A stretch of 64,000 nt of DNA from the NCBI GenBank assembly GCA_947561395.2, contig OX387190.1, positions 9,790,858 through 9,854,857 of the forward strand, written 5' to 3'. The stretch comes from Buxus sempervirens. Lineage: Eukaryota > Streptophyta > Magnoliopsida > Buxales > Buxaceae. Positions 29,553 to 64,000 of this stretch are shown piece after piece. Position numbers and translations under genes: made by a program. Position 1 is the stretch's first letter. Each line of letters starts with the position of its first letter. The notes below the pieces were generated by a model, which had not been told where the DNA came from, ran no database searches, and saw nothing but the letters and a program-made list of their open reading frames with translations.

Positions 29553-29598
<46 letters not shown>

Positions 29599-29599
29599 C
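29553..29599. repeat. (TA)n(TG)n microsatellite at an LTR insertion edge
   Basis: A run of TA repeats passes directly into TG repeats. The solo LTR starts where TA gives way to TG, so the TG run is probably an expanded LTR terminus. Confidence 0.7.
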
Positions 29600-34530: not shown

Positions 34531-37019
34531 TGTGCGCGCGTCGATCTGCGGTCACACCTCTTATGATCCGGATGGGGCATGTGTGTGCGTGACTCCTCTA
34601 AGGACTAATGGTTCCCAGTGTGATTTCGAATGAAAGCACGAAAGATTGGGTGCTTTCTGCATCAAGGAAGGAAATGGGGGAATGAGAGTCGCCACTGCCT
34701 GATGGGGTCCAAGCAGACACCTGGTTGCCTAAGAGGCTGTCTAATTAGGTGGTCTATGGCTTTTGAGATTCTGGTTAGACACCCCAGTCTGCTCTGTAGG
34801 GTAATGAGTTCCCGGGTCATCCTAGATATAAATCAACTCATCTTATTCTCACCCAACCCTAAACCGATATGCATTCTTATTTCAAGTCTGAGTGGAACAA
34901 TCTATGTGGCATAGACCCCTTTATCTGATTTTATCTTCTTATCTCAAAAGTGATATGAGTTTGGTATGTGGGCCCCATTGGAAGGCCTACAGGTTTGCCA
35001 GTTTAGGTTTATAGAGAGCCTAAGTCCCATTAGGGTTTTCAAGGATAATACCCTTTAGGATTTTGGTTGTTTAGCTTGGGTATGTTTTTAGGGATTCAAA
35101 ACCTTAAGTTGGTTTGAAGATTTTAAAGGGGGCTATTGGGCTTGGAGGTGGCCCATCGGAGGTCCTAGTTGTAGAATCTTGGATTTTCCCAATACAAAAT
35201 AAATATATAAATAAATAATAAATTGGAGAGACTTGGAAGTATAAATGAATTAAAAGGAGGAAAATAGAAATTAAAAAATAGGAATTTAAATTACACCATA
35301 GGTAAGAATTTGGAGAATTAATATTTATACTTTAAATTTTAGATTATGAAGAAAGATAATAAGAATGGAATTTGGAGAATTATGGAGAAATTCAATGATT
35401 AAGTGGGGAAATTAAAGAAAGGGCATTTTAGTCATTTTCTAATTATGCAAATCCATAAAAGAATGAAATAACTAATTATTAAATTTGAAAACTTAATTAG
35501 ACCAAATTTGAGTTTAGATGATTTTAAATAATAAATTTAAGGGTTAAAAGAAGGGAAAATGGCCTAATTGTAATTATGTTTATTTAGGGGCCCTAATTTT
35601 AGTTATATGAGAGAAAATCAAGTGATTAGCTAATATTAAAAATAGCGTTGATAAATAGCATGAAAATTAATAAACTATGAGTTTCTGATTGTAGAGGATT
35701 TAGGAGATAAGATTAGAAAGGAGAATTAAGGAAAGATATACAAGTGGAAAGTTAGGTATTATCCATATCCAATTTGGACGTCTAATTAGGTGAGTCTATA
35801 AAAGAGAAAATTATAGGAGATTTTGGGTTTCTTAATATTCCAAATGTATGGAGAGAGAAGAAAAAATAATAAATAAATAAAAGATTACACGATTGAAATA
35901 TAGAGAGAAATAGATAGGAAAACAAGTACTTTTGGAGGAGTGCTGCAAAATTCCGACTAGCAATCATCAAATTGAGATATGGAGATTTTCAACTGTTAGA
36001 TCGACCTCAAATTTATAGGTTATGTTCATGAGTAATAGGGTTTCAATCTGAACGGTGGAAATTTAATTTGGAGATGCCTAGAATGGTGCGAAAATTTCAA
36101 AAAGTTGGTGAACATTCAAGTTTTTTGGAAAGAAAGATTTCATATGTTGAGACAAGTAGCAAAAACTTTGAAAACTGGAGGAATTGCATGTTTTCCATAT
36201 GATTTAGATGTTTATCTTGGTTCGTTTTGATTCAGGTCTTGGTTTGAAGTGTTGAGAACTTTCGAAGATGATTTTGTTTTCATATACGTTTAGAGAACCT
36301 AAGGAAAGTGATGATCATAAGAGAATTATTTTAGTAGGAATTCTACATAAAAATTTAATTGATGAGAATAGATTATGATTTTTTTTAGAAGTGATTTAGA
36401 ATGAAATTATGATGATTAGAATCAATTAACCTATACAAAATATTTTAGATTTCAAAAAATTAGAAAACCCTGAAAATATTCAAAATTTTGCCTAAGCGCT
36501 CGTCGACGCTTGAGTGCTATTGCAAGCGTCTCGCTTGTGTGTTTTTAAAACAGAAATAACAAAACCTGAATTCCCAATGCCCAGGAAACGGCTCAAGCGC
36601 CATCCCGAGCGGCTGAGAAGAAAATTAACCCAGAAGTGGATGCCCAACCTGCCGTTCGAATGCAATACCAAGCGACCATTGTCAGAATTTTCTAAATTTT
36701 GGAATTAGAGCCCAAATCAATTTTTAATTATTTTTCTAGGAATTCTAAAGTTGTAATGTAAAACCCTGACCTCGATTATATCTTACTTATTAAGCTTAAT
36801 TATCTAAAGTGAGATTATTAGACTAATTAAATACTTGTGTTATAAAGATGAGGTAAATGTGGATTATACTTGAGGATTTAGGGGAAATCAAACTGAACTT
36901 TAGTGAAGTTATTAAGGTAAGCTTAGTTAATGTTATGTCTTAATTTCAATTCGATAAGATTCCCTCCAAGTAGTTTAGTGAATTAGAAATCAAATTCTAA
37001 AAAATTAGAGTTAAGTGCA

Positions 37020-37605
37020 CCTAAAGTACCTCATAAAAATACTGAAAGTAACTCCAAAGTATATCCAAGGTATCTCCAAAGAATACCTAAAGTAACTCTC
37101 AAGTATACCCAAGTATTACCCAAGGTACTACCAAAGTATACCTAAAGTGAACCCATGTATTACCCAAGGTACCACCCAAGTATTACTTAAAGTACCCCCT
37201 ATTTATACCAAAGGTACTCCACTTATATACCTAAGGTACCCTACTTGAATTGCCTAATGTACCCCACTTGAATACCTAAGGTACCATACTGTTTTACCTA
37301 AGGTACCCCACTTGAATACCTATGGTACCCCTTGTTTTACCTAAAGTACCCCACTGATTTATCTAAGGTACCCCCATATGTGTTTGCCTAAGGTACCCTT
37401 TTGTTTTAACTAAAGTACCCCCCAATATACCTAAGGTACACCCTTTATATTACTTAGGGTACAGCCTCCTTGTATTACCTAAAGGTACCCCCTTGAGTAA
37501 CTAAGGCAAACCCCTTGAAACACCAAGGTACCCTTCAAATAACACTAAGGTACCCCCCCCCCCCCTTAACACTAAAGTACCCCCTGGTATGCCTTAAGTA
37601 TACCC
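37020..37605. repeat. Minisatellite of about 20-24 bp CTAAGGTACCCC units
   Basis: Irregular tandem units around CCTAAGGTACCCCACTTGAA run for nearly 600 bp, with a C-run at about 37552-37564. It sits in the upstream part of LTR-8, before its TATA box, so it may be a promoter-proximal repeat of that LTR. No coding frame. Confidence 0.8.
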
Positions 37606-38502
37606 TATGGGTTTTAGTTGAATAAAAGCTTTGTTTAAGAGCAGATTTGAAAGACCAAAAGTTTGGCATATAAAAGGATTCCCTAACTAAAATATCTAGT
37701 GTTTTGAGAACCCTTCCTTGTCTTGGACGTATAGAACAAGAGAGGAAGTTGTGGGAGCTTACTTGAAAGCTTCAAGAAGAAGGAGAAGAAGAAGAGAGTT
37801 TGAAGAGAAGTTGTGCTTCTCCATTAAACAAGTAAGTAGCAAACCCTTCAAAACAAAATGTATTACAAAAATTCGTATTCTCTCTCTAGGGTTTGATTTA
37901 CTTTGAAGAAATGATCTTGCATGTTGGTATTTGCTTCTCAAACTCGAAGGTTTTGGTTGCATAACACTCTTGTTTAGTTTTCTATTGATTTGCTATGAGT
38001 TTGCAACCTATATTGATCATATTTCAGATTTTGGTTTCAGTTTTGTGTTTTAAATGAGGTTTCATGTGTTAGATTTGTGTTAATTGGATTTATGATGAAT
38101 CTTTGTTTGGAAGGTGTTTTTAAGTATGTTGGGATGATTTATGATCATCCCATTTGGTGTTGGGAAGGTTAAGAATGATTAGTATGAGTTTTGAGTTGAA
38201 AATAGCCAAAAAATTGACGAATAATCCTGAGCCAAAATCCCCAAAAATCAGTGTCTATTAAGGACAGGATTAGTCTCGCGATTAATCGCTAGGCTAATCG
38301 TGAGCCTGGACATGCGAACGTCCAAGAGGATGCGCGAACGTCAGGTGCGTTTTTTACCTGGACGCGCAAATGTCCATCTTGAACGCCCAAATGTCAGGGC
38401 TAATCACCCCTAGGCGATTAATGTCTTGTGTATTTATTATGTTTCCATTTACTTAAGTCTTTACATGTAAATAAGGTTTTACACCTCATTTGGAGCCAAT
38501 AA

Positions 38503-40872
38503 TGTAACGCCCCGGATCCGTGTTCTTCATTAAAGATATAACACGTCTCCTAGGGGTTAGTTAAGGATCTCAATAATGGTGATCGCTGGATAATCACCCA
38601 CATTTTATATCACATCAGAGTGCACAATTCAACATTCCTATCCAGGCAAGTTATGAAATCATCAAATACATCAAATGGTCCCAAGTTTACTATCTTATTT
38701 CAATCCTCAAAATTCAACTTAACAGTTTAAGACCAAACAACCTGCTGGACTAAGGTCGGTAGTAATAATCCTCCTCCCTATAAGTATCAGCCGGATCTAC
38801 CCCCGTAGGCACCTCACCACGAATATCTGAAAAACAAAGTAACAACGAGGGAATGAGATACGAATATCCCAGCGAGTGACACATGCATGCACAAAATAGT
38901 TAACACAGTTATAAGACATGCTTCGACAAATAACCAACGATAATAACAACGTAAATTCCGATAACAACTCAAACCAGGTCAATGCCATGCATATGGTTAC
39001 ATTGATTAATTTACATGCCAAGTAGACACTCCACACCTCCATGTACACAGTTCTGGCCTACTCAGGGTTTCGGAAACTCTGAAATGACGGCCTACTCAGG
39101 GTATCGTCATCCAATGCCGGCCTACTCCGGGTATCGGCACTGACAACCAGGCCTACTCAGGGTATCTGGCTGCTCTACACTGGTCGTGGCAACACACGTG
39201 GCCATGCAATTACACCAACAAACACATACCATCACATTACTAAGCTTAACAAGGATCCATGGGAAGCTAAACCCAAACCGATAATTAACTGTTTAAAACT
39301 CTGCATTAGTACACATCACCCATGGTTCCAACCAGAACATCAACTCACACAAGTGTTCCAACCAGAACATCAACTCACACAAGTAATCAAATAAATAGTA
39401 ATTACAACCTCATTCAAAACTTGCCATCAAAACGGGGTTCAATAAATCAAATCAGGTACCAAACAATGCATGTTTCAAGAGGACTAAAATAAAGCCCTAG
39501 TATGTGAACATCCCGAGCATCCTCGAATTATTTCTCCACACCTACTTCATAAGCCTTTACTAAAACTAGGATCTATCTCAAATGTTCTCACCAGAAAAAT
39601 TGTTACCTCTAATGTCGTAATCAATTAGTTGGGTAAGTGGTTGAAGACCCTTTAGTATCTAGAACCCCCTTGCTTTTACGAAATTATAGGATTCTACACG
39701 AAAAACAACTGGACGCTCACTTTCCTAAGTGGGCGCCAGGTAGGCGCCAAGTGGGCGGTAAGTCCATTCGTTTAACTGAAGCTGGCGCTCACTCGTGGTC
39801 GAGTGGGCGCGAGCTAGGCGCCAGACGAGCGCGAGAAGAGCGGGAGAAAGGCGCTCGAATTTGAGGTAGGCGCGAGCTGAGCGTGGGGTGGGCGCTAGCT
39901 CGGCGCCGGGTCCTTTTTTTCTTGGCGCTCACTTCCTAAGTGGGCGCCAGGTAGGCGCCAAGTGGGCGGTAGCCCACTACGATTCCCAGGTCTCTGTTAA
40001 TCCCAGAAATCCAACTCTGGCTGAAATTTTTCAGTCTGTAACCATTTATATAGCCTCCTAATACTCCCAGGACACATCCAAACCTAATTTGGATTTAATC
40101 TACATGATTTCCAGTTATCCCCAATTTCACTGTACAAAACCCTCCGTAACTGTTTTGCCCAGAAAACACACCGAGAATACTTCAATCATAAACAATGCAT
40201 TCATTCAATCAAATACACGAATTAATCCGAAAACTCGGTTGTAAAACAATGCCACTCACAAGTGTGCGCTTAATCCCAGAACAATAGCCTTTCCCAAAAT
40301 CGGCCGAGCACGATCCCGGATGCGCGAAGATGAAATGGTAGAGATGAAATGGTAGCCGAACTGTTTCTCTGCTCACGAGAGAGAAAACCCGCATAATCCA
40401 ACTCGAATAAACTTCTAGTAGTCCCTCCGAGTCTTGCTCTTCCTGAGAATAACCCCAATCGCCATTACCGCCGCAATCGCCAAATCGCCCAGCTCTAACG
40501 AGTCTAACGAAAATTACCTCCGTAAGTTACGCGTATTCCTACAACCCAAACCCTACTTTCCCCCTTTGGTATTTTTACCTCGCGAGACCTACGCCGCTTG
40601 ATTACTTTCCCTTTTTCCCTGATCCGATGCGCGCTCGCCCACTAGAAACCCTACATATTCCGCATCGACATACATTAATACGTAGACACTATACTTTAAT
40701 AATAATACAATAATAACTAAATTTTTTTCCGAAAAACGGCTATATAACGCCTGTACATACGAGCATGGGCTAAGCCCTCAAACCACACTAAACACCTGAT
40801 AAACACAGTTTATGTATATCAAACTGAAAAACTAAATAAATGGATAAACTCACCAAAAATCAGGGTCTTACA
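38503..40872 (-). mobile_element. Innermost solo LTR (LTR-5), AATAA duplication
   Basis: AATAA flanks it at 38498-38502 and 40873-40877. Plus-strand ends are TGTAACGCCCCGGATCC and GGGTCTTACA; the sense strand is minus, starting TGTAAGACCCTGATTTTTGG. Sense landmarks are a GGCGCC/GCGCTC word patch (39990-39700), the ATGGATCC-type anchor (about 39249), repeated CTACTCAGGGTATCGG words (39180-39052), a TTTTTCAG acceptor and a frame ending YREEDYYYRP-stop (38782-38750). A 31-bp unit is doubled at 39326-39385. It is the youngest of the four nested insertions. Confidence 0.82.
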
Positions 40873-43800
40873 AATAAAAATACTCCCAAGACCCAATTCT
40901 AACCAATAAAAGTCAACTTTCCAATTTATGGCTAAATTTCCAGTTTTCTCGGTTTTCATCAACAACCACTTTTTGAGTTTGATACTCAAATGAATGATTC
41001 AAAAGCCCATAAATTTCAGAAGATTTGTTTACCCTTCATTAGACTACAACAAGAATTTGAGCCCGAAACTCCTTGTAGATTTATCTAGAAAAATTTTATA
41101 CCAAAAAGTCAACGTTTTTAACCAGACTTTGAATATTTCTGTGGTCCAAAACTTTTTCTCGGAATCCATTGATTTTTGGTATGGTGACCTTATTGGGAAT
41201 CCTAAGACTATCCCACTCATCCAAAATGTGTTTTGAGGATTTATGACATTCGTTTTGATTGATTTGGATTTATGAAAGCGAGGTTGGGAACTCTTTTGTG
41301 ATTTGAATGATGAAACTGAGGCTTCTTGTGGACTTGCAAAGGATCTGAGAGCCCATGGTAACCCGAAAAACAGTGGGGCCTAGGGATTTAAAGGAAGGTG
41401 AACATAAGATTCACTTGATATGGTTTTGTACTTTAGGCAAGTGGTGCCTTTATGAGATTGGTTTTACAAAAATTGTTTTAATGGTTTAACATTAGTTTGT
41501 GTCAGAGTCTAGTGGGCATAGAAATGGTTATGGATCCATGGTCAATCTAGTTAGTGTATTAGTGATGGCTTGTCGAGTTAACACCCGAGCCACATTCGCG
41601 TACCACCGTGTGGGATCGGTGAGGCTTTCTTGTGGGATAGTGAACTAAGATAACCCGTACCGCCGTGTGGGATCAGCGAGGTCTCCTTGTGTGTGTGTGT
41701 GGGTATGTAGGTGTTATAGTCCCAGTTGACTGGGTTGTCTTAACCCGTACCACCGCGTGGGATCGGCGAGGTCTCCTTGTGTGTGTGTGGGTGTTATGGT
41801 TACAGTTGACTGGGTTGTTCTTGCCAGCCCATGCGTGGGTGCTCCACTTGGGGTGATGACCGTGCGCGGCTTCTACCTTCATGGCGTGAGGTGGCAAATC
41901 AACTAAGGGTAGTTATCTTGATTTACAGACACACTAACCCACGAGTCCTACCAAGATAAGCTTACAGTATTTGATCGCTTTTATGGAACTAATTTCATGC
42001 ATCATTCGATTAAGATATTTTGACTTGAGATTTGTGTTTTATGTTGTGAATATTATCAGGATGTTATGAAATTGCATAAACTGTTTCTATACATGCATGT
42101 TTGCTTTTTACTGGGACTTTAAGTCTCACATGTGTTTTGTTTCACCAGATTTGTTTTTAGATCCTCCTGGTGAGCTACGCATTGGGGGAGATATTGAGGG
42201 AGATTCAGACTATAGACCTGAGGACTACTACTACTACCCACAGTAGGATTCTCTTTATGATGATGTATCTTGTTTTGGGGAAATTGTAAATGGGATGTAA
42301 ATATCCTTTTTGGACTTATACTCTTAGGAGATATTTTTTGTATGTGTCTATATATTTTGGGAGAAAACTTGTGAACATTTAATTGTCTTAGTTGCCTTTT
42401 TGTTCACACAGATATCATGTTTTGGAGATTATAATATAGGTGATCTCTTGTTGGATGGAAAACTTTATTCCATGCTTCTTTAGTCATGCACTCTAATGAT
42501 TACTTTGTAATTGCTCAGGATTAATTGTGTTAATCAGGTTCTATTGGGCCCATAAGTAGGTCTCAGGGACGGGTTGGTGCTTGGGTAGGGCAGACCCGGA
42601 TCTGGGGTGCTACATGCAACATCTGTAATTAGGGTAATATGAGATGTAGGAAGTGGTGGAACTAAGTTTGAATAAAAGAATATTAACCTATTTACAATTG
42701 GTTTTAATTAGCATAACCTATTATTAAACTTCACCACAGACCTAAATTACCCTCTGGAAGGATTAAATATCAATGTTAATAAGTTTTGAAACCTTAGGTT
42801 CTTAAATGAGAAAATTTGGACATTATTGAGTAAATTATCGAGAATAACAACCAACTAGGGGATGAATTTTAGTAAAACCTAATATATTGATTTGGTAAGT
42901 CATCTAACACTTAAATATAATTAATTTAAGAGTGTTTACATTGATAAAATACTATTTAGGTAATTAATCAAGAGATTGGGCATATTTTGCTATAAATAAT
43001 ATGTTTTCAAGGTTTGGATTAAGTTTTCTATTTATTTTCAGATTTGAGCAATTTCTTATATTCAATATTATATTTCTGGATATTTGCATATGGTTTCATG
43101 GATAATATGGCAGAATCAATGTTTTTCCTCTGTGTATCTCGGAGTGGTTAAATTCCTCTCTCATGTATCTTGAGGTGAGTTGTTTATTGAAGATTTAGAA
43201 CTTAATTACATTTTTAGCACATCTTACTTTTGAGACAAGTTATTACTAAAGGCTTTTGGTTGTGAGTTGTGTCTAGTGGGCAATGCTTAATATGGATCCA
43301 CTGTATTGCTAAAAAGTGAAATGGAATTATCTTTGTTAAGTTAAACCTGTCTCCCACTTATGCTCCCATCATGTATCTTGACAAAGCCTTCCTGTATCTG
43401 GTCATGCTACAGCAATCCTTTTCCTTCGTGTACCTCGACATGGTTATTAGTTGTGTATCTCAGCATCAGATTATATTGGATAATTCACCATGTATCTTGG
43501 TGTGGTATATCCTCCGTTGTGTATCTCAACGCGGTTTTCTTGCGTTACCACCATATGCTTTAATGGAACATTGGCAAATATGTGTTTTATATTGGCCGTG
43601 CTTGTAGTCCACATATGACTCACACATGTAAGTTATATTGTGGCTGTACTTGTAGTTCACTCGTAGCTCACTCATGTGCTAGTATTAGCCGTGTATTGTC
43701 CAGCGTATATATTTGATTGAATCGGTATTCCCATTTGTTGGATAGTTCCAGTTGATTGGATTGTACGCACCAACCCTCCATGTGTTTCAGTTGGGTGATC

Positions 43801-44846
43801 CACATTGATCGTAGGTGGAGGGAATGGTGACCATGTATCTCGGCTCCATATCATGTAAGCTCTTGAGGTGGCGAACTTGGGAACATGAAGTAGCTTTTCA
43901 AAGTGGTTTTAGTTCATGAATCTTATGAGGTCACACATGCGTGGTTTGGTTTGGTTTGGGGTATGCTTTAAATGTTATTATCGTGATTTGGTTTTATCGT
44001 TATACCTCATAATTTTATTTTTATAGATAAATTGGACTGTTTTATTTCATGCATCTTGCTACTTGTTGATATTTATATCTTACTCCAGTTTTCACTATTT
44101 TTCAGGTACTCTTGGTGAGGTCGTCAAGCACTAGGGTATTATGTAAAGGGTAACCAATATTTGTGTACCAATTATAAGTTCAAAAGTTACTTGTAAAAGT
44201 TAAGTTTATATTGTAATAGAATTTTATTTTATGTTTCTGCATAATAACTCTGATAAAGACATGAATAAAAATTTTAAATTATTTTGGTTTTTTTAGTTGT
44301 ATTGGCCCACTTACGCACTTCAGGGTTGGACAATTGATCGAGAAGCGGGGTGTTACACCAGTAGCTTGAAATTCACATTTCGAGTGGATTTGGATTAAGC
44401 AAGATGGGTGTGAGCCCTATTGGAAGGCCCACAAGAGTTCATTATTGGATCTAAGGCAAGACCCAAGTCCTAAAGTGGTTCCTGGTGATCTAGGACCCTG
44501 TTGGACTAATGGTACACCCTAGGAATGAACTTTAATCTTGTTTAACCAGGAAAAATCAAGATCTGCAATTCTTTGTGAACAAACCGTATACATCATAAAA
44601 TTTTGGTCAAAACCATATGCTCCATGCAGTTGTGACCAAACCGCTCTGTGTATACGGTTTACACAGAAATTAATGAAAACTTGATTTTTTAGGGGGGAGA
44701 GGGGCTCCTCACCCCGTGTGAGTCTAATGATGTATGTGGGTCACTGAGTTGACCCACAGTGGCTTTCTGATTACAGTTTTAGCATTATAAACCTAATTTC
44801 TAAGTGTTTGAACCAAAGAGAATGGAGTGGGGAGGCTTAGGGCGTC

Positions 44847-50082: not shown

Positions 50083-50228
50083 TATTTTAGATAAGTTTGA
50101 TTACAAAAATAAATTATTTTAATGTGGTGCCCAACAGGGCTTATGGAGTATGAAGAGGATGTCCACGTGGAGGAGACAGGATTTAGTGTTTCAGGACTCT
50201 GCTTTACTATATATGTATATGTATATGT
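50083..50228. other. Repeated host flank of LTR-4
   Basis: Resembles 34380-34470 (TTGATTACAAAAATAAATTATTTTAA, GGACTCTG) and ends in TA/TG microsatellite at 50210-50250. No gene. Confidence 0.35.
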
Positions 50229-50768: not shown

Positions 50769-53700
50769 TGTAAAATCCCTAATTTTTAATGAAATTAAAA
50801 TTTTATTAGTTTAGTAATTAAATTAATGTTAATTAGTAATTTTCAAAGAAAGGAGGCCAAGAAGTTAAACCGAGGACTTTTGGTCAAACCAATTGGGATG
50901 ATTTCTTTTAGATAGGTAACGGCATTACTGGAATTTTTACTTATTGGGTCATGAAGGTTCAGTGGTGTGACAAGCATGGAATCAAAGGGAAACAGATGGT
51001 GAATGTGCAGGAAGTTAGTGGAGGGTCAAAGCATAGGATCATGAATTAAATTGGTTCTGGCAGCAGCTATATAAATTAGTGTTTTATTCGTTTGTTTAGT
51101 TTGAGCATTTGAGAAAGTGAGTTAGAGATCTGAGAGTTTAGTCAAAGAAGGGAGGAGTTAGGATTGAGAGGAGTAGATCTAGAGTTGCTGTGGTGATTCA
51201 AAAGAGATCATGATTGGATCTTATCTCTGTTTTGGTTTGGAGTTGAGATGCATCTGCAGTAGGCAATAGAGGTTAAATTTCAGCAAAAGAATTTGACGGC
51301 TGAGTTGATAATTGGTGGCTGAGATTTTGATTGTGGAATTCAGAGATTTTGAGCTGTGATTCATCTTCATCCTGGTAAGTAGCACTAGATTTACTCCGAG
51401 TTTTGAAGTCAAATGCATGAGTTAAATTGATATTATATGCTGTGATTTGTTATCGACGACTGGTTTTACGAGTTAGTTTTTGGATTTAGAGCATGATCTT
51501 AGTAGAATTAAATTTGAATTGGTTCTAAATGGCTGTTATAGGTATTATGAGCATGAAATAGTTGTTGTAGAGTTTTAATTTTAGGTCAGTCATAATGGAT
51601 TCGAGCTAACAGTGACTAAAATTTGGTGTCGGAGAAATCAGGGGGTATGCGCTGAGTGTCACCGACTGACATGGCTCAGCGGTAGTTATATTTTTTAGAT
51701 GTGTTGAGTGCTGCCTACTGCCGCCCACTGACAGTAGGTCAGCGCACCTACCAAAATCAAAAATCAAGTTCAGCTGAGTGATTTTAAGTGCTTTACTCCA
51801 ATCTAATTGTTCAAAAACCTATCTAGGAGTTGAATTAAGATGCTAGAAATATTTTCAAGTGATGGTAACGTATTGAGATTATATTATCAATTATTAGGAG
51901 AATTTATGATGATTAAAGGTTAGGATTTAAGGTGCTTGTTAATTGGTTAGTTGCTAGTCTGGTATGGTGAGTTCATGGGTTTGTTTATTTCATGTTTAAC
52001 TATTAATTTTCAGATTGTGATATCTTTTAAACGGAGTTTTAATTGATTATAGTGTGCTAGGTGTAGACACCTGATTTTTGCATCCCAAAAAATGAAGAAA
52101 ATGAAATTTTCAATTAAAAAGTCAAACTCTGAGGGGGCCAAATTTTGACTTTTTGATCCAAGGATAATTGGCTATCAAACTTCATCTCATTGAAAAGAGC
52201 ATTTCAACACAGTTCCAACGCAACCGAGTTTGCCAGAATCGGAGTCCGGATTAGGAAGTTATGAGCCGGTCAAACTTTTGGGGAAGCGAAAGTTGACTTT
52301 TTGCTCGACCCCAATTCAACTGCCCAACTTGATCCCATTCGATAGAGCATTCCGAGCCGATTCCAACAACACCAAATTTACTAAAATCGGACATTGGACG
52401 AAAAAGTTATGGGCAGTTGAAGTTCCAAGAAAACTGCCCATGTGGTAAAACAGCAGCAAAAAGCAAAATAAATGAATAAGATAAATAAAATAATCATTTA
52501 AAAAAATATCTTAATATTTTAATAATACTTTTAATAAAAAATCTAAGATATTTATAATAAAATAATAATAAATCGGATGAGAATCTTTTTAAAAGTCAAA
52601 TTTGATTAAAGATTTGAAATCCAACATTTTTAAAATACGGGCACATCTTCTGGAAGGGACACGCGTCGCTATACGACAAGACACGTGTCCTATACGGCCG
52701 ATTCGGCGAGATTTGAAAATGTGCGTTTTTCGCCCGCATTTGAAGTACGGGCAAGGCATGCCCGCATTTGAATTACCGCAGTTCAAATACGGACACGAAA
52801 AAAAAGGCCTATAAATAGGGGGAGCCCCCCCATTTGTGCAAGCTAGCCCCATATGCTCTCCCCCTCTCCTCTGTGGTGTTTTTCCACGACCTTACTCTAC
52901 CTAAACTCTGTTAGCCCGAAATTTTTACCATTTTGCCCCTATACCATACCCTTTTGTCTCTACCCTCTATCTCATTTAACCCAAAGTAGGAAAGACCCTG
53001 TTCAAACCCACTTTGAGAAATCAACAGGAGCACAGAAGCGCTGCCCAAATTTCTTCTCATTTCCTTCTTTTCAAGTCTAAAATAAGGAGACCCTTTTCAA
53101 GCCAATTCTGGGAAATCTAAGGGAGTGCGGAAGCGCTGCCAAAATCATTCGGAGAATCTCTACACCTCGGAACAAGGAAGTAATAGCACGGTGAGCTTTT
53201 CCTGTATATTTTATTTAACATATATGAAAAATAAATCATTCTGACAAGCTCCTTTGTTTTGTTCATTTAAAAGATTTGGTCTTGTTATATCTTTCTAACT
53301 TGTTTTGCTATTTGTGTATAACGTGTGAGCTCCTACGATAAGAGGAGCTCACATACTTAAAGACAGAGGAGGGGAGAGTTCCAATAAGCTGTCTTGAACT
53401 AATCTTTTTTATGATAATTTGTTCATGTTTGTAAAGAGGGGTCCTGTCCTCTTCAGCTCTTATTGTACCCCATGACCTTCCCTTCTTTCCCTTCATTGCC
53501 AATGGCTTAAATGAGCAGCAAAAAGGAGAAATCTTTTCTCTTGGTGGAACACTGAAAACCGAACAGAACAAGAGTTTCGCATCACTTGGAGGTGCTGAAA
53601 TCACCAACCAAAAGGAGCCGGCGACACAAATCCCGAGGCCGTCGCGGCGTTTTTTTTTTACATTCGGGCAAAAACCGTATTTTCTGTATGGTTTAGGCAT

Positions 53701-55780
53701 GCCCGTATTTACTATACGGGCAAGCCTGAACCGTAGTACATTTACGGGCTAAGCCCGCCCGCATAGTAAATACGGGCAGATTAAGAAGTAACTTAAAAAT
53801 CATCTTTTTTTGCACCCGGTTGGACCAAATCCAACCCGATTGAACTTGACCCAACCATTTGGGCTTTTTGGACTTTTCCAAGCCCATTTTGAGACTGTGG
53901 GCCCAACGGGCCCACCAAGGCTTCGTGGGCCCTCCAATGGGGCCCACATCCCGTCTGGTACAACCAAGGCCCATTTCAATAAATGGGCTAAAGCCCACTT
54001 GATTAATTGCTCTTGGGCCCAACCCAAGCCCGATAAGCCTCAAAAAACTTCAACCCACTAAATTGTGTAAGCATAATTGAACCTTTAAACCAAATAGCTA
54101 AAATCCAATAAGAGTTATCCAATAACCCGAATTGGGCCTTGGGCTTGACTTTAGCCCAACTTGGATTCCACTATGCCTTCCAAAGAGACCCATACTAGAC
54201 CCACTTCATCAATTGATAAAAAGATAAAATCAAATAAAGAGGAGACCCCCACCATCAATGGTCCCCACTCCGACCAAATAAGTGTGCATGCTGGCTTAGG
54301 AAGGGTGAGAATTAAGTTGACTCAAAACCAAGGAGACCCATGGGACCCGTCAACCGACGGGGCGGGCTAGGGTGTCTTCGGACTTCCCTAGACGTAACCG
54401 ACAACTTGCTCAGATCTCTAATAAAGCCTCAGACCAGAATAATTAGGCCCGAATAGGTGCCCCCCTTTGTGTTTGCCTGCACCTCTCAGGCAGTGGCGAC
54501 TCCAAACAACCCCGAGGCGAGCATCTCTTCACATGCACCTCATCGCGTGACCGAAATCAGGTGCGCACACTAGGCAGAATTTATAAAATGGTTTTACTTA
54601 AGTTAATTGCTTATACGATTTGGTGGAGTATTGTTCTATGGTTTACCATTTACATTTGAAGTTCTATAAAATATTGTTTTGGTCCTGAGTGACCCATGAT
54701 AAACAACAATTGTGATTCATCGTCATTATGTTTACATTGGATGTGCATGCTATCTTCTCGGTTAAGTTAAAAGGCTGAATTTGAGATTGTTACTGGTTTA
54801 GCTTGTCCTGGATCCATGTCTAAGCTTAGTAATGTAATGTTATTGCTTCATTGGTGTAATTTCATGGCCTTGAGTATTGCCACAACCGGTGTAGAGCAGC
54901 CAAAAACCCTGAGTAGGCCTGGTTGTCAATGCCGAAACCCGAGGAGTAGGCCGGCATTGGATGACGAAACCGTAAGTAGGCCGTCATTTTAGAGTTCCGA
55001 AACCCTGAGTAGACCGGAGTTGTGTAAATGGAGGTGTGGATGTCGCCTTCGCATGTCAATTAACCAATTTAAGCAACTACATGACATTGACCAATGTTGG
55101 TATTTGACTTTATTTGACATGATATGTTTTATTCGCTGGTTTATTGGTGCGGAGTAGCCCATGATAAAATACTCTATTGGTGTAGAGTAGCTCATGATAA
55201 AATACTCTATTGGTGGGGAGTGGCCCATGATAAACACTCTAGTATTTCGAAACCCTGAGTTATTTGAAATTATGATTTCATCGATGTATGGTTACCTGGT
55301 TATACGTGATTTCATGACTATATTCGAGATTTGATACCAATGTTATTAATTGGGGTTATATGATGGATTTCTACGTTTATATCGATTGGATTGTTGGAAT
55401 GTTGTCGGATTACTCGAATTATATGTGTTATCGTCACCGTGTATGTTTTGTAACCGTTGCATATTTTAGAACTGAACTAAATGTATTTATGTATGCATGT
55501 GCTGCTTACTGGGATATTCGTATCTTATTCCGTATTGTTTTGTTTTGTTTTTAGCTGCTCTTGGAGAGGACGATACCTGCGGGTAGTTGCTCGGTTATGT
55601 GAGTTTAGCGTTGTATTGCTGTAATTATTATTTTAGTTTGGGTTTGTAGCACACTCTGATTATCTAGTTATTGTTTCAAGTATGTTTTTCCTTCACTCTG
55701 ATACTGCGATCCTGTGTTATATATTAACCTCCAGAGATGAGTTATGGTTTCTCTACGTAACTCGGATCCGAGGCGTTACA
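50769..55780 (+). mobile_element. Solo LTR (LTR-6), TCTCC duplication, itself hit by LTR-3
   Basis: TCTCC flanks it at 50764-50768 and 55781-55785. Starts TGTAAAATCCCTAATTTTTA, ends CTCGGATCCGAGGCGTTACA. Landmarks in order: a leader ending at the donor CTG|GTAAGTAGC (51375), a CTGAGTG/CACCGACTGA word patch (51630-51770), the anchor GGATCCATG (about 54810), CCCTGAGTAGGCC words (54900-55255), GCATGTGCTGCTTACTGGG (about 55496), and the acceptor TTTTTAG (ends 55554) followed by GCTCTTGGAGAGGACG. Native length is about 2.5 kb. Confidence 0.8.
52062..54569 (+). mobile_element. Solo LTR of the LTR-1 family (LTR-3), CTAGG duplication
   Basis: CTAGG flanks it at 52057-52061 and 54570-54574. Starts TGTAGACACCTGATTTTTGC, ends CAGGTGCGCACA, matching LTR-1 in the opposite orientation. 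Landmarks: TACGGGC palindromes, TATA box CCTATAAATAG (52807-52817), two GAAGCGCTGCC motifs (53036 and 53131), a donor-like CACG|GTGAGC (53191), and CAGGCAGTGGCGACTCC near the end. The perfect duplication gives the best-defined boundaries of this family. Confidence 0.85.
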
Positions 55781-56250
55781 TCTCCATATTTACCATTATT
55801 TATTATTTAACTCTTCTAAAGTCAGATTCACTTATTAATCTTCTAATTGGTTAAAGTTACATTTTTTTTATTTCCATGTATTGAAAATTATTGTTATTTA
55901 CTTATTTATTTATTTATCGTTTATATATATTTATTATAATATTAGATCCTCCAATTACCCTGGATTAAATCTTTATTCCACAATATTCCTAAATTTATTA
56001 ATTTGTTCTTCAAATATTTTGATTTACTTTATTATATTATTATATTTAAAAATTCAGGATTTTACAACGGCTGATAAAGAAGGAGACCTATGTGCAGCTC
56101 TTGGAGGAGATTTTCATGGGTTTCATTGCTGTGATAGAGAGAAGATTGCTATTTGAAGGTTTTGCTTGGTTTGGTTTCAAGAAGAGGAAAGTAGCAACCC
56201 TTTCCAACGGAAAACTTGCATGGCTTTATGTTTAGACAAAAAACACTGTG

Positions 56251-59200
56251 TGTAATGACCCAGAACTAGGTCTGCCTCTCCTAGGCACTCACCTGTCCCC
56301 GGTCGTCACGGGTTGGTCTTTCGACCTAATAAAAGATGCGGATAATTTAAAATTTTCCTAATGTAAGTGGAAGTGATATACAGTTGATGCATGTGCATAA
56401 TAAGAGTGTATAAAAAGTAATAAATTTTGTGGTGGACTACAAAGTTACTTACACAACTACTTAGCTAATACAAAATGATGGGTTCTAACCACTCATCTCG
56501 GCTATAAAGTTTACAAGTCCAAAAAAAAAAAGAAACTACTAGCATGTACAAGAAAGATAAAGTCCTATGTAGGTCGGTAGAAGTGCTCCTCTCTATACCC
56601 TATTGCCTTGTCCTTCCCTTTATCCCCAATCCGGTCCTTCACACCGGACGTCGACGATTCTGAAAGCAAAACAATAAAACAACTTATGAGACGAATGTCT
56701 CAGTAAGCAACACATGCATGCTCGGTAAAAACACAGTTTATGCCACTATCATTCAGTAAAACCATGACATGCGAGTAGTTAAAATACTAGTTAAAGCGAC
56801 AACAATTCAGTGCAAGACATGTAGTACAAATCTGTGCTTAGGTGTACAAGTCAACCATTAATAAACAATCATACATTTATTCTTATCACTTTGTTATTTA
56901 AGGTGTTTAATACATACTACACATGACCCCATCTGGCTTCTCCGATTCCTCATGGTGGCTAGGCATCCAACGCTGATTACCCTTGACGTTAGGCATCCAT
57001 ACGCCGATTACCCTTGACGTATAGGCATTCATGCTGATTCCCCGTAGCAATGGGCATTGGACACCGATGTTGCTTGATGCCGGGATGATATAAACAATAC
57101 AATAACACAATGTAACTTGGTCATGGCATTATATACAAACACACCTACTTCAATTTATGGATCCATAACTTAAGGTTGTGCATTATGCAAATGTTCATTC
57201 ATTCGTCAAGTGTAACATCTCAAAGGGTGGCTCATAGCCTCACCCATAATAACTTAAGCCACTGCCCTTCATGCAATATCTCTTGGAACTGGGCCACTGC
57301 CCTGTAAAACCCCGGATTTTCCTAAAATAAAGTAAATTAAATAAGCCTAAATATTGAGAAGTTAAGATTCACTTTAGGTATCGGAAGAATAATATTATGA
57401 TCCAAAGAGATATTAGTAACTAAATAAATAAACAATAATTTTGAGTAATTAGGAAATTAAATAGTGGCTTCATTTAAATAGGAAAGAGCAAGGTTGATTT
57501 GGATAAATTGGAAAATGAAATTAAATATAAAGGATGGGAGAAGATAGGTATTAATCCAAGTACATTATATGGTTAAGATTGATGTGAAGAATAAAGAGGA
57601 GAATTTTTGGAAAAGATTCAAAGGTTAAGTATGGAATTCCAAGGAAAGAGTATTTTAGTCATTTCCCAATTATCCAAATTAAGATATTGAGTATGTAAAT
57701 AATTATTAGACTTGAAATATTTAACTAGACTTAATTTGGGTTAGGTTTGGATTTAAATAGCAAATTATTGCTTAAAAGTAGGAAAAAGGGTATATTGGTG
57801 ATTATGGTTGATAAGAAGTCTTAAGTTTGAGGATAAGAGGTAGCTTTAGGATGTTTTAGTAATATTTTAAAATAAGAAATTTAATTAGCAGGAAAATAAA
57901 TTAAAATAAATCCTTCTCTTATATAAGATACTTAAAAGAGGAATTAAAAGGAGGGTTAAGATGGGGAGGTTTCCAATTAAGAGTGAGAAGTCTATTTAGA
58001 AGGTCTTCTAAACCTAGTAGGACTTCTAATTAAGAGAGCTTATAAAAGGGGAGGTCTAGGAGAGGTTTAGGGTTTTTAGCAAGTTCAAAAATAAGGAGGA
58101 AAGAGAGGAAAATTCGTGCTTGGGCTTGGGAGAAAAATAAAAGAAAGAAGAGAAGAGAGAAAAGAGAGGGAAAAAAGGAAAAAGGGAGGTGCTGCAGAGG
58201 TCCGACCAGCAGACTTTGAGCGACGATCCTCGGAGATCTAGTCATTGGATCATCATGAAATTTGGAAGTTATGCTCTATACATTATATAATTTAATCTGA
58301 ACGGTGGAGATTGGATTTGGAAGAGTCTAAGGTGGTGCGAATTAACCCAGAAGTTGGTGGAAAATCAGATTTTGGAAGAAAAAGGAGTTGCAGAGATGGC
58401 CGACTAGGCAACTTCGAACGGTGAGATAGAAAGATCCAACCGTTGGAATGGGCTTCAATTTTATGGTTTTGTTCTACTCATGGAGGACTTCAAACTGAAC
58501 GGTGGAGATCTAAATTTGGGAAGTTTAGAGGGGTCCGGTTGAGCTCCAAAAACAGGCACAGAAGAAGTTCTGAAAAATTTGGGTTCATCAAAAAGGCAAG
58601 TAGCAAACACTTGAAACTGGAGGAACTGCATATTTTCTTGTGTTCTGATGATTGATCGTATTGGTTCTTAAGTTGGATTTCATTGGAAAAGTTAGATGTT
58701 TATAAAGTTTTGATTTGGTGATTTGAATCTCTTTTTAAAAATCAAGAAAAGTGTTGTTCATGGGTGGGTTGAATTAGAAAGAAACCTTAGTTAAATTTTA
58801 ATTACCAAGATTTGAGTAGCATCGTTTTAAAACTGGGTTTTGGATTGATTCGTGAGTTTGATATTGATGCATATGTTTTCTGGAAGAAGATAGTCCGAGC
58901 GTGAGTTTTTTTTTAGAACTGTTAGAGATAAATAAAAAGTTGTTTAGAATAATTTCAAAAGTGGTTTAAACGTCTTCTGGGGATGGTAGGAGGCTAGGGA
59001 AATGGTTACAGACAGAAAAATTTCGGTCAGTTGTGTAGATCTGGAAATAACATAGACTTGAAAAACCAAGGTAGCATCTACCGAGTTGGCGCCTACCTAG
59101 CGCCAACTGGGTTGAGTCAGCGCAAGGCCGAAGTTTCTTACCGCCGAGCTCGCGCTCATCGCGCACCTGTCTCGCACTGGGCGTATTTTCTTAACGCCAA

Positions 59201-62182
59201 GCTTGCGTCTAGTTCGCGCCGAGCGGATTTCCTTAGCGCTTATCGTGCGCCTAGCTCGCGCCTAGTATCCTTTAAGTAAGCGCGACGTGTAGTTTAACAT
59301 TTGACTTATCGCTGACCTCGCGCCAAGCGCCAGAGGTCAGCGCAAGCCCCAAATCTTTGCCGAAATGTGAGATTTGACCAATCAAGCTAGATTTTAATAC
59401 TTTGAGGGTTCAAGCACTTAGCTATTGACTTATTTAGAATTTTAGAAATACTGTTACCTGTTCAAATACTCTGAGAATATTAAGTGGAAATTTTGGAAAT
59501 TCTTAGGAGCATCCAAGGTTAATTTTAAGGGCTACCAGTAGGTGATCTTATTGTACCTAACACTAGGAGTTCCTGATTTAGCTCCCTTTTGTTTATATAC
59601 TGTACTTGAATGAGAATTTATTTAATCTGGTTTTACTTGATTGCAAGTTCTTAAATGTATTGTAAAGATTTCTCTTGGTGTAAGTAAATGAGTTTATTAC
59701 CAATGGGCATGTGTTATGAGATTTGAGGAAATACTGAAAGTACATGAGGTACTGTTCTGGTCTAGAGGGACATGTGGTGAACTGGTTGAGTTATACATGA
59801 TGTTGAACGTATTGTTTTATTGTGATGTCAGGGTTGTGATTTTACGATGGTTTGCTGTTATGGTTTAGCTTGTCCTGAATCCATGTCTAAGCTTAGTAAT
59901 ATGATGGTATTGTTTATTGATGTAATTGCATGGCCTTGTGTGTTGCCACGACTGGTGTAGAGCAGTCAGAAACCCTGAGTAGGCCTGGTTGTCAATGCCG
60001 AAACCCGGGGCGTAGGCCGGCATTGGATGACAAAACCCTGAGTAGGCCGTCATTTCAGAGTGTCCGAAACCCTGAGTAGGCCGGAACTGTGTACATGGAG
60101 GTGTGGAGTGTCTACTTGGCATGTCAATTAATCAATTCAAACAATAGTCATGACATTGACCATTCGATGTTTTATCAGTATTGTTATTGAAATATGATTT
60201 GATAATATTAATGGGATTGGATTTAAACTTTGGAATTATCCTTATTGATGTTATTGTTGGTTTAATCGTACACCTTATGACTTATTTTATAAACATGGAC
60301 TGATTTCATGCATGCACCTTGCTACTTGTTGAGATTTATTCTCACTCCAGTTTCTCCCATTTTTCCAGGTACTCTTGGTGAGGACGTCAAGTTGTGGGCT
60401 AGTTGTAGCTGGGTAGTCTATATAGATGTAGGATTGCTCATATAATTGAAATCCTTTATTATTAAAATTGTTGATTAATAAAGAGAATTTGAATTCAAGT
60501 TTCCGCTTTTACTCTTATTATAAAGTTAGAAAAAGTTTTAAATTATTCCATATTTTATTTGCTTTTGTTGATTACCATAACACCTCGGGTTTTGGGAATT
60601 GGACCCGGAATCGGGGCGTTATATGCCCTCCATATACATATCAACATTTGGGCCACTGCCCTTCATACCAGGTGTTATCAATTGGGCCAATGCCCTTCAC
60701 AATATATCACATGCTTACAACAAGAATCAATAACAATAAGATATATTCATAGTATTAAGTTTGCATTTCATACCTCACTTGGCAACCTAGGCCCCAACTC
60801 TTTGGAAACATGTACAACTTAGCTTTGGCTTTGGTTTTCTACTTCCAATGATCATTTGGAAGGTGTTCTAAGTGGTGGAATTGGATTATCCCATTCCTAC
60901 AAATATCTGGAACATCAACTCTCTATAAAACCTATTTTAGTAGAACGCACCCAAAATCTTGGTTATTTGGAATTTTGAGATGATTCCAGTAAAAACACTT
61001 CCTAGACACCTAAATACTATTTGTACATAGGTTGGATTTAAATAAAAACAATCCGTAGTTGGATTTGTACCAAAATCCCAAATTACCGAAAATCTGCCCA
61101 GGGCGCCTGAGTGCGCGCTCGAGCGCTGGTTTGGGCGCCCAGCTTAGCCTGAAAACCTGCTCTCGGGTTCTGAGTTTTTAAGAAAAACACAGGCGGGGCG
61201 CTCGCGATCGCGCTCGAGTGCCCACGAGCGTCCTCGCCTTAACTAGATTTTTGAACAGGTGCTCTATCGAGTGTCCTGGCGATTTCTTAGGTCGTGATTT
61301 TTTCCGAATTTCGTGAATTTCTAGGATTTCTTTAATCTAACACATTTCTATAGTTTTTGGTCTCTAAATTGTCTCTAAAATGTGTGGTTTACCTATTACC
61401 TATGAAACGCCTAACAAATCCCTCTCCTATTTGCGAAGAAAATCAAGTTTACACCAAAACCTCAAAATTCCCACATTTCATACGAAAATGAGAAAAACGA
61501 AAATTTAGGTTGGGAGGGTGTTGCTTACCTCTAGCAATCAACCAAGTAGGTGTTCTTGCTCCTATAGCAACTCATGAGCAGCACTCCTTGTGCCTCTTTG
61601 GTTGCTTCTCCTCAAGTCTCCAAGCTTTCTTTTCACCCAAATGAAAATCGCCAACTTGAGTGCTTTTTCTTCTTAATGCAATAGCTCCCCCACGTTTTTG
61701 CTCTTAAATACCTCCCTTGGGTTTTAGCTCATCCAAGGAAACAATGGGGAGAGTAGAAGAGGAAGAAGGAGAGAAGAATGGAGGGTGGGGTTTCATATGA
61801 ATGAACCCTCCAAACCCCTCTTTACACTTAATAAAATTTCCTCCAAATGGACTTTTGGCAATTTCCTTCCAAGTTTGCCCTTCTCCCTTCAAGACACCCA
61901 AAATCACCATCTTGCCATTCTCCTCCTGCTGCACAATACAAATTACAACTAAGCCCTAGTCTCTCACATGAAATAAATTTATTTACTAACTTAGGAATTG
62001 CTCAATTAGAAGGAAGGCTTACCTTTACACATTTCTGCAAACATGGACTTAGCCACTTGGCTGGCTTCAAGTCTGGATTGCTCCAACTTCACCCTCCCCA
62101 CAAAGTAGAAAAGTTTAGAATTTTCCCAATTGTCTCTTGCTTAATCACTTAAAGAAATAATCTAAAAATCTGGGGTTTCACA
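56251..62182 (-). mobile_element. Solo LTR (LTR-11), CTGTG duplication, itself hit by LTR-12
   Basis: CTGTG flanks it at 56246-56250 and 62183-62187. On the sense (minus) strand it starts TGTGAAACCCCAGATTTTTA and ends GGTCATTACA. Sense landmarks: a leader with donor AG|GTAAGC (about 61536), a GCGCTCGAGCGC/GGGCGCC word patch (61270-61090), TATGGATCCATAA (about 57160), GGCATCCA..GATTACCCTTGACG words (57080-56935), GCATGCATGTGTTGCTTACTG (about 56705), and a frame ending YREEHFYRPT-stop (56597-56565). Native length is about 2.6 kb. Confidence 0.82.
57303..60623 (+). mobile_element. Solo LTR nested in LTR-11 (LTR-12), TGCCC duplication
   Basis: TGCCC flanks it at 57298-57302 and 60624-60628. Starts TGTAAAACCCCGGATTTTCC and ends CGGGGCGTTATA, the expected ACA terminus having changed to ATA. 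Landmarks: TATA box CTTATAAAAGG (about 58039), a GA-rich leader, donor-like CAAGTAGCAAAC (about 58599), a GCGCC/CGCGCC patch (59080-59345), TGAATCCATG (about 59877), CCCTGAGTAGGCC words (59970-60090), GCATGCACCTTGCTACTTG (about 60313), and acceptor TTTTTCCAG (about 60368). Length 3.3 kb. Confidence 0.82.
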
Positions 62183-64000
62183 CTGTGTTCATGGGTTTGG
62201 TTTTGATTTGGAAGGCATGGTGGTGATATTTTAATGATTCTTTATTGTTTTTTGACATTTGGAAACAAGTTTATTATAAATATGATTTATTCCATTAAAG
62301 AGTGAAATTTTGATTGGTTTATTGTGATATGATGTAAATTTTGGTTTGAGAGTGTAAAGAATGATTTGTCATGTTTTAGTAATGATTTTTTATGTATTAT
62401 AGTTTATTTGGATTGATGGAATCATGTTTTGTAACTTTAAATTGAAAAATCAAAACATGTAGAAAATCCCAAGTCTCGCGAATTTGGCTTGACGCACGAG
62501 GTACGCTTGAGTGCAAATTGAGGCACTATGCCTTATTTTGTGGCTGCACAATGTTGCTTGAGAGACTGAGTATTGAATGTATTTTAAATCAAACCGAGAG
62601 CTAATTGGAATGCCCGATGTGCACTCGAACGCTACATCGAGCAACAGAGCCCAGAAACCTAGAGCTCGGGTGTTGGATTAAGCGCTATGTTGAGAGTTGA
62701 GTGTAAACATTAGATATGTGGTTGGACGCCCGATATGACACACGAGCGGAGCTCGAGCTCTCACACCCAGATTTTACAGTTTTGAACAATTAACCTAGTT
62801 TTCAATTTTAAAATGCTTTTTATGTAAATCCAACACATGTAAAAATAAGATTTTGGTATTTATGAGTGGTTTTCAGTGACAAAAGAATTTATAAAAATTA
62901 TAGAAGATTTTGAGTACGTTCTATTGAAATAGATCAGGTTTGGGTTCCAAAGGGAAAATGACTTTTGTAATAACTTCTACTTGTATTGGCTAGTTTCTAC
63001 ACTTGTAAAAGATGATTTTGAAAATGTTTTTAAGTTCCGGAACAATTCAAAAAGGATTTCTAAACAAATTTGGTACGTTAAGCAAAATATGGGGTTTTTG
63101 AAAGGAATTGATAAGTTTTTGTTTTCCTTCATGAGAAAGGGAGTTTTTATCACTATTTATTCTCCATGAGAAAGGGAGTTTTTGTTTTCCTTCATGAGAT
63201 AGCTTTATTTCATGATTGAATTGATATAAATATTGTTTTCGTTATTGATATTCGCCTTGAGATCATGGATTGGAGAACCTTCGTGATGGAGTGGATTTGG
63301 TCACGATTTACCAACAATTGTATATTGAGTACATTGGTTTATTTGATAATATTGTCTAAAACTATTTTGGGCTTAGCTTGTTATGGATCCATAATTTAGC
63401 TAGTAAGTGAAGCTTGTCAATTTTGTTTGGATTAAGTCTAGTCTCCTTAAAGCGTTTCCTTAATGATGGAGAGGCATTCCATGAGGGGAATGTGCTGCAG
63501 CAACTCCGTTTCCACCATAAGGGTGATGTCTTGCGTATTTCCACCATGAGGGTGATGACATTGGTACCAGAGATGTTGCAACTGTTCTTAGACTGAATTG
63601 TTTGGAACTAGGTCTTAACCTTGCAAAGTAGTCAAATTTGATGAGACCCCTAAGACAAATTGATTTGATATATATATTGATTTAATTTACATGCTAGCTA
63701 CTTGGGTTTATCTTGTATTGTTTGTTTTATTATTATCAGATTAATTGGATTATCTGTGTTATCGTCACTGTTATATGATTTATTATTGATTCACGTTTAG
63801 AACTGGATAAACTGCATTTGAGCATGCATGTGCTACTTGCTAGGATATTTGTATTTCATTCGGTTTTGTTTTGTTTTCAGATCTTGGTGAGGACGATACT
63901 CAGCTAGTAGATACTGCTGGTGATTACCCAGAGTACAGAGAGGAGGACTACTATGTGGAGTGGCAGTAGTATATTTTGATTGTAGACTTTTATTTTGAGG

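Follow-up and report, generated by a model that had tools for sequence, protein, structure and literature searches.

In Buxus sempervirens, positions 35170-64000 of a 64,000-nt stretch of contig OX387190.1 (GCA_947561395.2, positions 9,790,858 to 9,854,857; the whole stretch is called the window) consist of nested long terminal repeats (LTRs) that appear to share an RNA module. In these LTRs, short repeated words lie between two conserved anchors, A and B. We found that anchor B makes up half of a long-range helix (H1) of 10-12 bp, whose upstream strand coincides with a 5'-splice-site-like motif, GTAAGTAGCAC. In three of the word families tested, the words are predicted to be constant hairpin loops with varying, compensating stems. 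We give a probability of about 55% to the reading that these parts belong to a leader intron, in which the hairpin array would mark unspliced genomic RNA for retention or packaging.

Eight LTRs of the window were compared (LTR-5, 6, 7, 8, 11, 12, Y, and Z). The longest frame in the nest has no more than 146 codons from stop to stop. The limits of the LTRs were set by terminal TG..CA and 5-bp duplications, and these ends with their target-site duplications identify the group as LTRs. The duplication is perfect for LTR-5, 6, 11, and 12 (LTR-12 ends in TATA instead of TACA) and has one mismatch for LTR-7 and LTR-8; none was found for LTR-Y, and LTR-Z, which runs past the window end, was left out of this check. 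The preliminary description had proposed that eight diverged LTRs share a modular plan of anchor A, repeat words, and anchor B. This plan was confirmed, and the words it had listed are present. Anchor A is ATGGATCCAT and anchor B is CATGCATG..CTACTTG; ATGGATCCAT and CATGCATG are palindromes by sequence. Both anchors exceed chance. In the 676.5 Mb genome, where anchor and arm patterns were checked against control patterns, A has 10,593 matches per strand (204 for the reversed pattern) and the B pattern ATGCATGTGYTRCYYRCTGRGA occurs 7,752 times (0 in the control). The mean pairwise identity among the eight LTRs is 0.88 for A and 0.76 for B, compared with 0.27-0.28 in the flanks of A. No Rfam family reached its gathering score within the window. 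Two further observations concern the nest. A solo LTR of an unrelated family (52062-54569, duplication CTAGG) is nested in LTR-6 and resembles stretches of 5937-8342 and 29593-32350, and two LTR-Y-type fragments (45386-46102 and 47599-48318) form an inverted pair with 91% identity.

Loci elsewhere in the genome were sampled in two sets. From among the listed matches to ATGGATCCAT on contig C1, 20 regions were taken, and 10 of them had a B followed by a hairpin and a T-rich AG, as judged by eye. Another 14 regions upstream of B sites were selected to span different B variants. When the ten loci were added to the window LTRs, the mean pairwise identity was 0.95 for A, by whose exact sequence these loci had been selected, and 0.77 for B. 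The repeat block keeps its position as had been proposed, with an A-to-B spacing of 372-935 nt across the 18 LTRs.

B had been described as a conserved anchor; it instead pairs with a splice-donor-like site in a covarying helix. B has its best complement in the donor-like 16-mer in six of the eight window LTRs, and the donor variants GTAAGC, GTAGGT, GCAAGT, and GTGAGT are each accompanied by a matching change in B. Across 16 arm pairs (15 distinct), 95% of the cells pair, and two-sided changes occur at 8 of the 12 H1 positions, making up 20 cells compared with at most 4 in slid controls; this test is inflated because the arms were partly picked by complementarity. The donor sites of LTR-7, 8, 6, 12, and Y had been spotted by their own letters before the complementarity was noticed, and those of LTR-5, 11, and Z were located with it in mind. 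Arms chosen by complementarity are avoided in the free-search permutations (18 LTRs; 14 further loci) and in the fixed-pattern pairs on C1. In the permutations, the best complement of B was sought anywhere upstream, for cognate and non-cognate combinations alike. The observed excess of cognate over swapped pairing was reached in 33 of 200,000 permutations for the 18 LTRs, 106 for 16 LTRs, 3,485 for six window representatives, and 6,007 for the ten genome loci alone (200,000 each), and in 374 of 100,000 for the 14 further loci. Among the ten sampled loci, the donor-like partner is the best complement in four (L009, L010, L014, L019) and ranks second or third in four (L001, L002, L006, L007; the L002 site is not GT); it is absent among the complements in L005, a short piece, and in L018. 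In the 14 further regions it is the best complement in nine, second in L023 and L030, and third in L032, and it was not seen in L028 and L022. A matching arm of L022 lies 5.9 kb from its B, beyond the piece examined.

The fixed-pattern test covered 19.7 Mb of C1, with 24 donor arms and 100 B sites among the matches listed. The donor-arm pattern, GRGGYRRGYARCACC, has 1,748 matches in the genome and 21 in the control. Within 6 kb, B lay downstream of the arm on the same strand in 16 pairs, upstream on the same strand in 2, downstream on the opposite strand in 1, and upstream on the opposite strand in 0; 10 of the 24 arms had no such B within 6 kb among the B matches listed. In the 14 nearest pairs, 138 of 140 cells are paired (132 Watson-Crick and 6 G-U). 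Both unpaired cells fall in one pair, and the next B for that arm matches fully. Watson-Crick pairing is 9.4 of 10, compared with 7.7 of 10 for random B sites among the matches listed (0 of 20,001 permutations). Classes of arms also co-occur, GTAAGCAAC with GTTGCTTAC, GTAGGTAGC with GYTACCTAC, and GCAAGTAAC with GTTACTTGC. Apart from H1, a second complementarity, GAAAACTGGAG with CTCCAGTTTTC, was observed in LTR-7 (36169-36180 with 44078-44100), crossing H1 in pseudoknot order. It is shorter in LTR-12 (58613-58622) and weaker in LTR-Y (45772-45782); it is confined to one lineage, and we ranked it low.

In the cassette of LTR-7, the arms around eleven near-TGTATCT words (for example CACCA-TGTATCT-TGGTG and CGTTG-TGTATCT-CAACG) pair better than in all 20,000 permutations. 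With only the eight exact TGTATCT words, 3 of 20,000 permutations did as well, and for 23 TGTATCT units in four other loci, 0 of 20,000 permutations matched the pairing score and 32 of 20,000 matched the number of consecutive pairs. LTR-6, 12, and 5 have four hairpins in common, with the loop AAACCCTGAGTAGGC and its variants and the stems CAGYCAG/CTGGTTG, CAATGCCG/CGGCATTG, GATGACG/CGTCATT, and AGTTCCG/CGGAGTT. This AACCCTGAGTAGG loop family gave 3 of 20,000 within-LTR permutations, with 3 of the 12 units having zero or one consecutive pair by a strict count. Its loop word has 3,643 matches in the genome (0 in the control), and 35 distinct units from among the matches listed pair better than in all 50,000 permutations. 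The loop of the LTR-11 relatives, AAGGGGAATC, occurs 644 times (10 in the control); 44 distinct units from among the matches listed gave 1 of 50,000 permutations, and the 20 units of the closest stem classes gave 109 of 50,000. The cassettes of LTR-8 and Z show the same hairpin form, with too few units for testing, and LTR-Y has no clear repeated word. The H1 and hairpin structures are well supported as RNA predictions. With stem-loops and palindromes in the putative leader, they have the sequence features of a retroviral-type packaging and dimerisation leader. Further shared motifs, GAGGTGGCATAGTGAA-like and TTTCATGAGTCCT-like, were seen by eye in the stretch from the cassette to B in L002, L005, L009, L010, L014, L018, and L019.

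The preliminary description had offered two guesses for the cassettes, factor-binding arrays or RNA signals. RNA signals are favoured over DNA arrays, because the words of three families are predicted hairpin loops with compensating stems, downstream of TATA-like sites. Rapid turnover of repeated LTR words is classically a property of U3, and the words might accordingly be promoter or enhancer sites, as in the modular U3 repeats of Tnt1-type elements, which lie upstream of the promoter. In LTR-8, a TATA-like box at about 37669 is indeed preceded by a separate tandem array (37045-37600). The cassettes, however, are found more than 1 kb downstream of the donor-like sites, which in turn follow TATA-like sites, and DNA sites would not be expected to show compensating arms whose letters vary, so that we consider an enhancer array the least probable of the readings and ranked a Tnt1-like U3 array low. 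The array of LTR-8 (about 22 bp, CCTAAGGTACCCC..) is of U3 type and distinct from its cassette.

Whole cassettes appear to have been exchanged between LTRs as units. In LTR-12, anchor A plus the cassette is 90% identical to LTR-6 and 5, and this cassette shows no alignment to Y or 7. The 211-nt donor region of LTR-12 aligns to Y (78% over 186) and 7 (77% over 194) and not to 6 or 5, and the B region of LTR-12 is 89% identical to Y, 87% to 7, and 79% to 6. Between its single A and single B, L010 has a cassette of the L009 type (296 nt, 90.5%) and, after it, one of the Z type (249 nt, 83%), which looks like a replacement caught midway. These two cases bear out the earlier suggestion that content is replaced at a kept position; the functional role suggested with it is conjectural. 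Recombination in the R region at the first template switch, as described for Onsen in the excerpts of PMC5668417, would be a sufficient route.

Downstream of B, the order is a hairpin, a T-rich tract, and AG. We inspected 32 B sites (8 in the window and the 10 and 14 sampled loci). A hairpin such as TGGGATATTCGTATCTCA, TGAGACATTCGTCTCA, or TGGGACTTTAAGTCTCA was sought within 32 nt after B; 22 of the 32 beat base-shuffled controls at p<0.05 and 6 at p<0.01. It does not form in L001 and is weak in LTR-7 and Z. A T-rich tract ending in AG follows B at all 32 sites, with the AG picked by script differing from the expected one for L005 and LTR-8. By a home-made score, the expected acceptor ranks first among all AGs of its LTR in five of the eight window LTRs, second in Y, fifth in 7, and tenth in 8. 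The donor dinucleotide is GT or GC in six of the eight (all but 7 and Z), and with the AG and pyrimidine tract this makes up the sequence signature of a spliceosomal intron. The composition also shifts at the donor, in a way that resembles an exon-intron border. Between equal lengths on its two sides, ATGs rise from 32 to 120 (0 of 20,000 sign flips), with an increase in 22 of 24 LTRs, equal counts in 2, and a decrease in none; T content rises from 28.6% to 39.7%. The 24 LTRs are the eight of the window and 16 loci; L001, L002, L007, and L032 were omitted as weak and L042 as a 3' LTR start. In 22 of 25 LTRs, the 900 nt before the donor include TATA-like strings, which is weak evidence in such AT-rich sequence. 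Given the donor-like site, the acceptor-like AG after B, and the shift in ATG and T content, the cassette therefore sits in a putative leader intron.

Several observations weigh against this reading. By a score based on plant splice-site frequencies, the donor ranks 1 in LTR-6, 2 in LTR-8, and 3 in LTR-11, but only 13 in LTR-12, 19 in 5, 31 in Y, 51 in Z, and 382 in 7. The donor dinucleotide is AC in LTR-7, GA in Z, and GC in 12 and Y. AATAAA follows the acceptor in only three of seven LTRs, and R is therefore not delimited. Copies of an exon-exon junction were counted as none in the two families searched, with 1 match and 4 in the control for the LTR-11 family and 3 matches and 1 in the control for the L019/L024 family, each with two mismatches; this lack does not discriminate, because the model also predicts none if spliced RNA stays unpackaged. 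The cassettes are ordinary in folding energy (z-scores, 351 windows), and the strongest signals come from a GC-rich block in another part of the LTRs. When the word was chosen automatically in 18 cassettes (best of nine loop extensions, uncorrected), the signal was clear in LTR-7 alone (0 of 2,000), with a weaker one in L014 (22 of 2,000); the remaining 16 gave 65 to 972 of 2,000 and were mostly uninformative.

Two alternatives draw on these points. H1 and the hairpins might serve another step, such as strand transfer in reverse transcription, RNA circularisation, or pararetrovirus-like ribosome shunting, with the splice-like motifs being incidental. H1 is kept in LTR-7 and Z despite donors that are not GT or GC, GTAGGT donors are kept with a matching B, and the missing spliced copies would fit as well. 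Since the ATG and T content shift sharply at exactly the donor-like site and a T-rich AG follows B at every site inspected, we regard this as unlikely. The words could also be neutral tandem repeats made by slippage, with the paired stems arising incidentally from inverted duplication. In many LTRs, short tandem words are replaced quickly, the ordinary folding energy would be expected, and some units are unpaired (for example at 43834 and unit 3 of LTR-12). Differing stems around one constant loop, within and between LTRs, are nevertheless unlike slippage products, which makes this origin very improbable.

The group to which the LTRs belong is of the Ty3/gypsy type. In the genome, 797 junctions of an LTR end with a Met-tRNA primer site were found (0 in the control), and L040 and L041 have gag, protease, reverse transcriptase, RNase H, and integrase in this order, with rve below the Pfam cutoff in both; the assignment thus applies to the group rather than to the solo LTRs of the window. 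An element on C1 (B sites 18654985 and 18662130) has gag, protease, reverse transcriptase, RNase H, and integrase domains in this order, with rve below the cutoff, within a single open frame that spans at least 1,325 codons. At the start of its 3' LTR stand a TATA-like string and a donor, GAG|GTAGGTGACACC, which matches the B of this element, GTGTTACCTAC. A search for a chromodomain found SH3_Tf2-1 and no chromodomain at E up to 0.001, and membership in Tekay/Del is therefore a lead only. Acceptor-like TTTTGCAG or GCTTACAG stands directly before the gag ATG in L040 (about 146-155) and L041 (about 44-62), where several ATGs occur in the leader past the primer site. In the C1 element, TTTTGCAG directly before the gag ATG is a possible further acceptor.

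We propose that the long transcribed part of these Ty3/gypsy-type LTRs carries a leader intron, with its donor some hundred bases past the TATA-like sites and its acceptor near the LTR 3' end. H1, of 10-12 bp, would pair the donor with a segment just upstream of the small hairpin, the T-rich tract, and the acceptor AG, zipping the intron ends together and hiding the donor. The interior would hold the family-specific array of constant-loop hairpins with varying paired stems, between the palindromes ATGGATCCAT and CATGCATG, and the array would be replaced as a block through recombination between elements. In unspliced RNA, the hairpins may bind the Gag of the element or a host protein, tagging the RNA as genome, and the palindromes may aid dimerisation of two RNAs. 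Spliced RNA, without the array and many upstream ATGs, would act as messenger. The intron and H1 could also be real and the array serve splicing or nuclear export control through host RNA-binding proteins, with no relation to packaging or dimerisation. A few hundred bases separate the array from the acceptor-like AG downstream of it, H1 covers the donor, and nothing ties the array to Gag. Family-specific loops and block exchange would fit an element-specific partner better than a shared host protein, and we consider host control rather unlikely, though it is the strongest of the alternatives. Going further than the proposed leader intron, we suggest tentatively, at less than even odds, that a self-zipping leader intron exists in a large class of plant retrotransposons, with the swappable constant-loop array as a family-specific address tag, and that tag swapping might change partners or allow escape from parasites. 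The positions of the module in the window are given in Table 1.

Table 1. Positions of H1 arms, cassettes, and acceptor-like sites in the window LTRs.
Feature	Position	Strand	Remark
LTR-7 H1 5' arm, donor-like site GACAAGTAGCAA	36151..36162	+	dinucleotide not GT in this copy
LTR-7 H1 3' arm TTGCTACTTGTT, anchor B	44056..44067	+	
LTR-7 anchor A ATGGATCCAC	43292..43301	+	
LTR-7 constant-loop hairpins, loop TGTATCT	43120..43930	+	11 units, at most 1 mismatch; first three upstream of A
LTR-7 acceptor-like AG	44104..44105	+	
LTR-8 donor-like site, H1 5' arm AGTAAGTAGCAAAC	37831..37844	+	
LTR-8 H1 3' arm GTTTGCTTTTTACT	42099..42112	+	one mismatch
LTR-8 cassette, loop TGTGGGAT	41590..41840	+	3-4 units
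LTR-5 donor-like site, H1 5' arm GTGAGTGGCAT	40249..40259	-	located by complementarity
LTR-5 H1 3' arm GTGTCACTCGC	38872..38882	-	
LTR-5 cassette, four hairpins, loop ATACCCTGAGTAGGC and variants	39040..39200	-	
LTR-Y donor-like site, H1 5' arm GGCAAGAAGCAA	45754..45765	+	one mismatch to own B
LTR-Y H1 3' arm TTGCTACTTGTT	47280..47291	+	
LTR-6 donor-like site, H1 5' arm GGTAAGTAGCAC	51374..51385	+	
LTR-6 H1 3' arm GTGCTGCTTACT	55499..55510	+	
LTR-6 hairpin cassette, loop AAACCCTGAGTAGGC and variants, four units	54880..55245	+	plus second 33-bp array at 55142-55241
LTR-11 donor-like site, H1 5' arm GGTAAGCAACAC	61518..61529	-	
LTR-11 H1 3' arm GTGTTGCTTACT	56702..56713	-	
LTR-11 cassette, loops TCAAGGGTAATC and relatives	56930..57080	-	
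LTR-12 donor-like site, H1 5' arm GGCAAGTAGCAA	58595..58606	+	
LTR-12 H1 3' arm TTGCTACTTGTT	60319..60330	+	
LTR-12 cassette, four hairpins, loop AAACCCTGAGTAGGC and variants	59955..60095	+	
LTR-12 acceptor-like AG	60367..60368	+	

Other features of the window lie outside this module. They are a 21/43-bp tandem array (CTCGAGTCCCATGTAAAATTG) at 8833-10442, a Mutator-like element (MULE) transposase in pieces on the minus strand at 15812-17768, and a CC-NB-ARC-LRR resistance-type gene across several frames at 24085-27646.

In human immunodeficiency virus (HIV) and murine leukaemia virus (MLV), the packaging signal psi lies downstream of the donor. The comparisons that follow draw on excerpts of the sources cited; the nearest parallels are the retroviral leader and the RNA pools of BARE. 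Retroviral leaders also have structured hairpins, palindromes, long-range interactions, and selection of unspliced RNA (PMC5035971), but the window LTRs hold both the donor and the acceptor-like site inside the LTR, and the packaging signal of Rous sarcoma virus (RSV) precedes the donor. BARE, a Ty1/copia element of barley, is likewise a plant LTR retrotransposon with separate messenger and genome RNA pools; its spliced messenger is kept apart from the unspliced packaged RNA, and the authors emphasise the need to keep spliced RNA from being packaged (PMC3735527). However, its facultative intron of 104 nt is at the end of gag and not in the LTR, and no donor-acceptor helix or exchangeable hairpin array is described in the excerpts of that paper. 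Ogre is a plant Ty3/gypsy element with a partly spliced intron (PMC6317226, PMC3735527). Retrosat2 of rice, placed under Tekay/Del in PMC6317226, has an LTR of more than 3.2 kb, in which R takes up 2,023 bp (PMC3485330), but the word intron has 0 occurrences in the main text of PMC3485330 and no such module is described there. The LTRs of Onsen are mosaics formed by template switching, mostly explained by the first switch in R (PMC5668417, which cites a title on LTR swapping in soybean); that exchange is among members of one family, whereas here the LTRs involved hardly align in the rest of their sequence. Models of conserved LTR structure likewise have conserved motifs with variable stretches between them, and no donor-acceptor helix or cassette is described in the excerpts of PMC3601003, whose abstract states that plant Metaviridae LTRs could not be modelled owing to length variation. 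In the open-licence PMC literature, as far as its excerpts go, we found no description of an intron inside a plant LTR, the sole match for the phrase being an engineered lentiviral vector. The ingredients thus have precedents, and their combination inside an LTR was not found in that literature.

The covarying helix between the donor-like site and the acceptor side is a searchable signature, and the B pattern alone marks 7,752 places in the genome. With H1 as a signature, solo LTRs can be oriented and modules traced. The helix and the cassette layout explain the common plan of LTRs that barely align, in plant Ty3/gypsy elements whose LTRs resisted earlier modelling (excerpts of PMC3601003). 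The signature also makes it testable how such plant elements split messenger from genome RNA and how non-autonomous elements choose their helpers.

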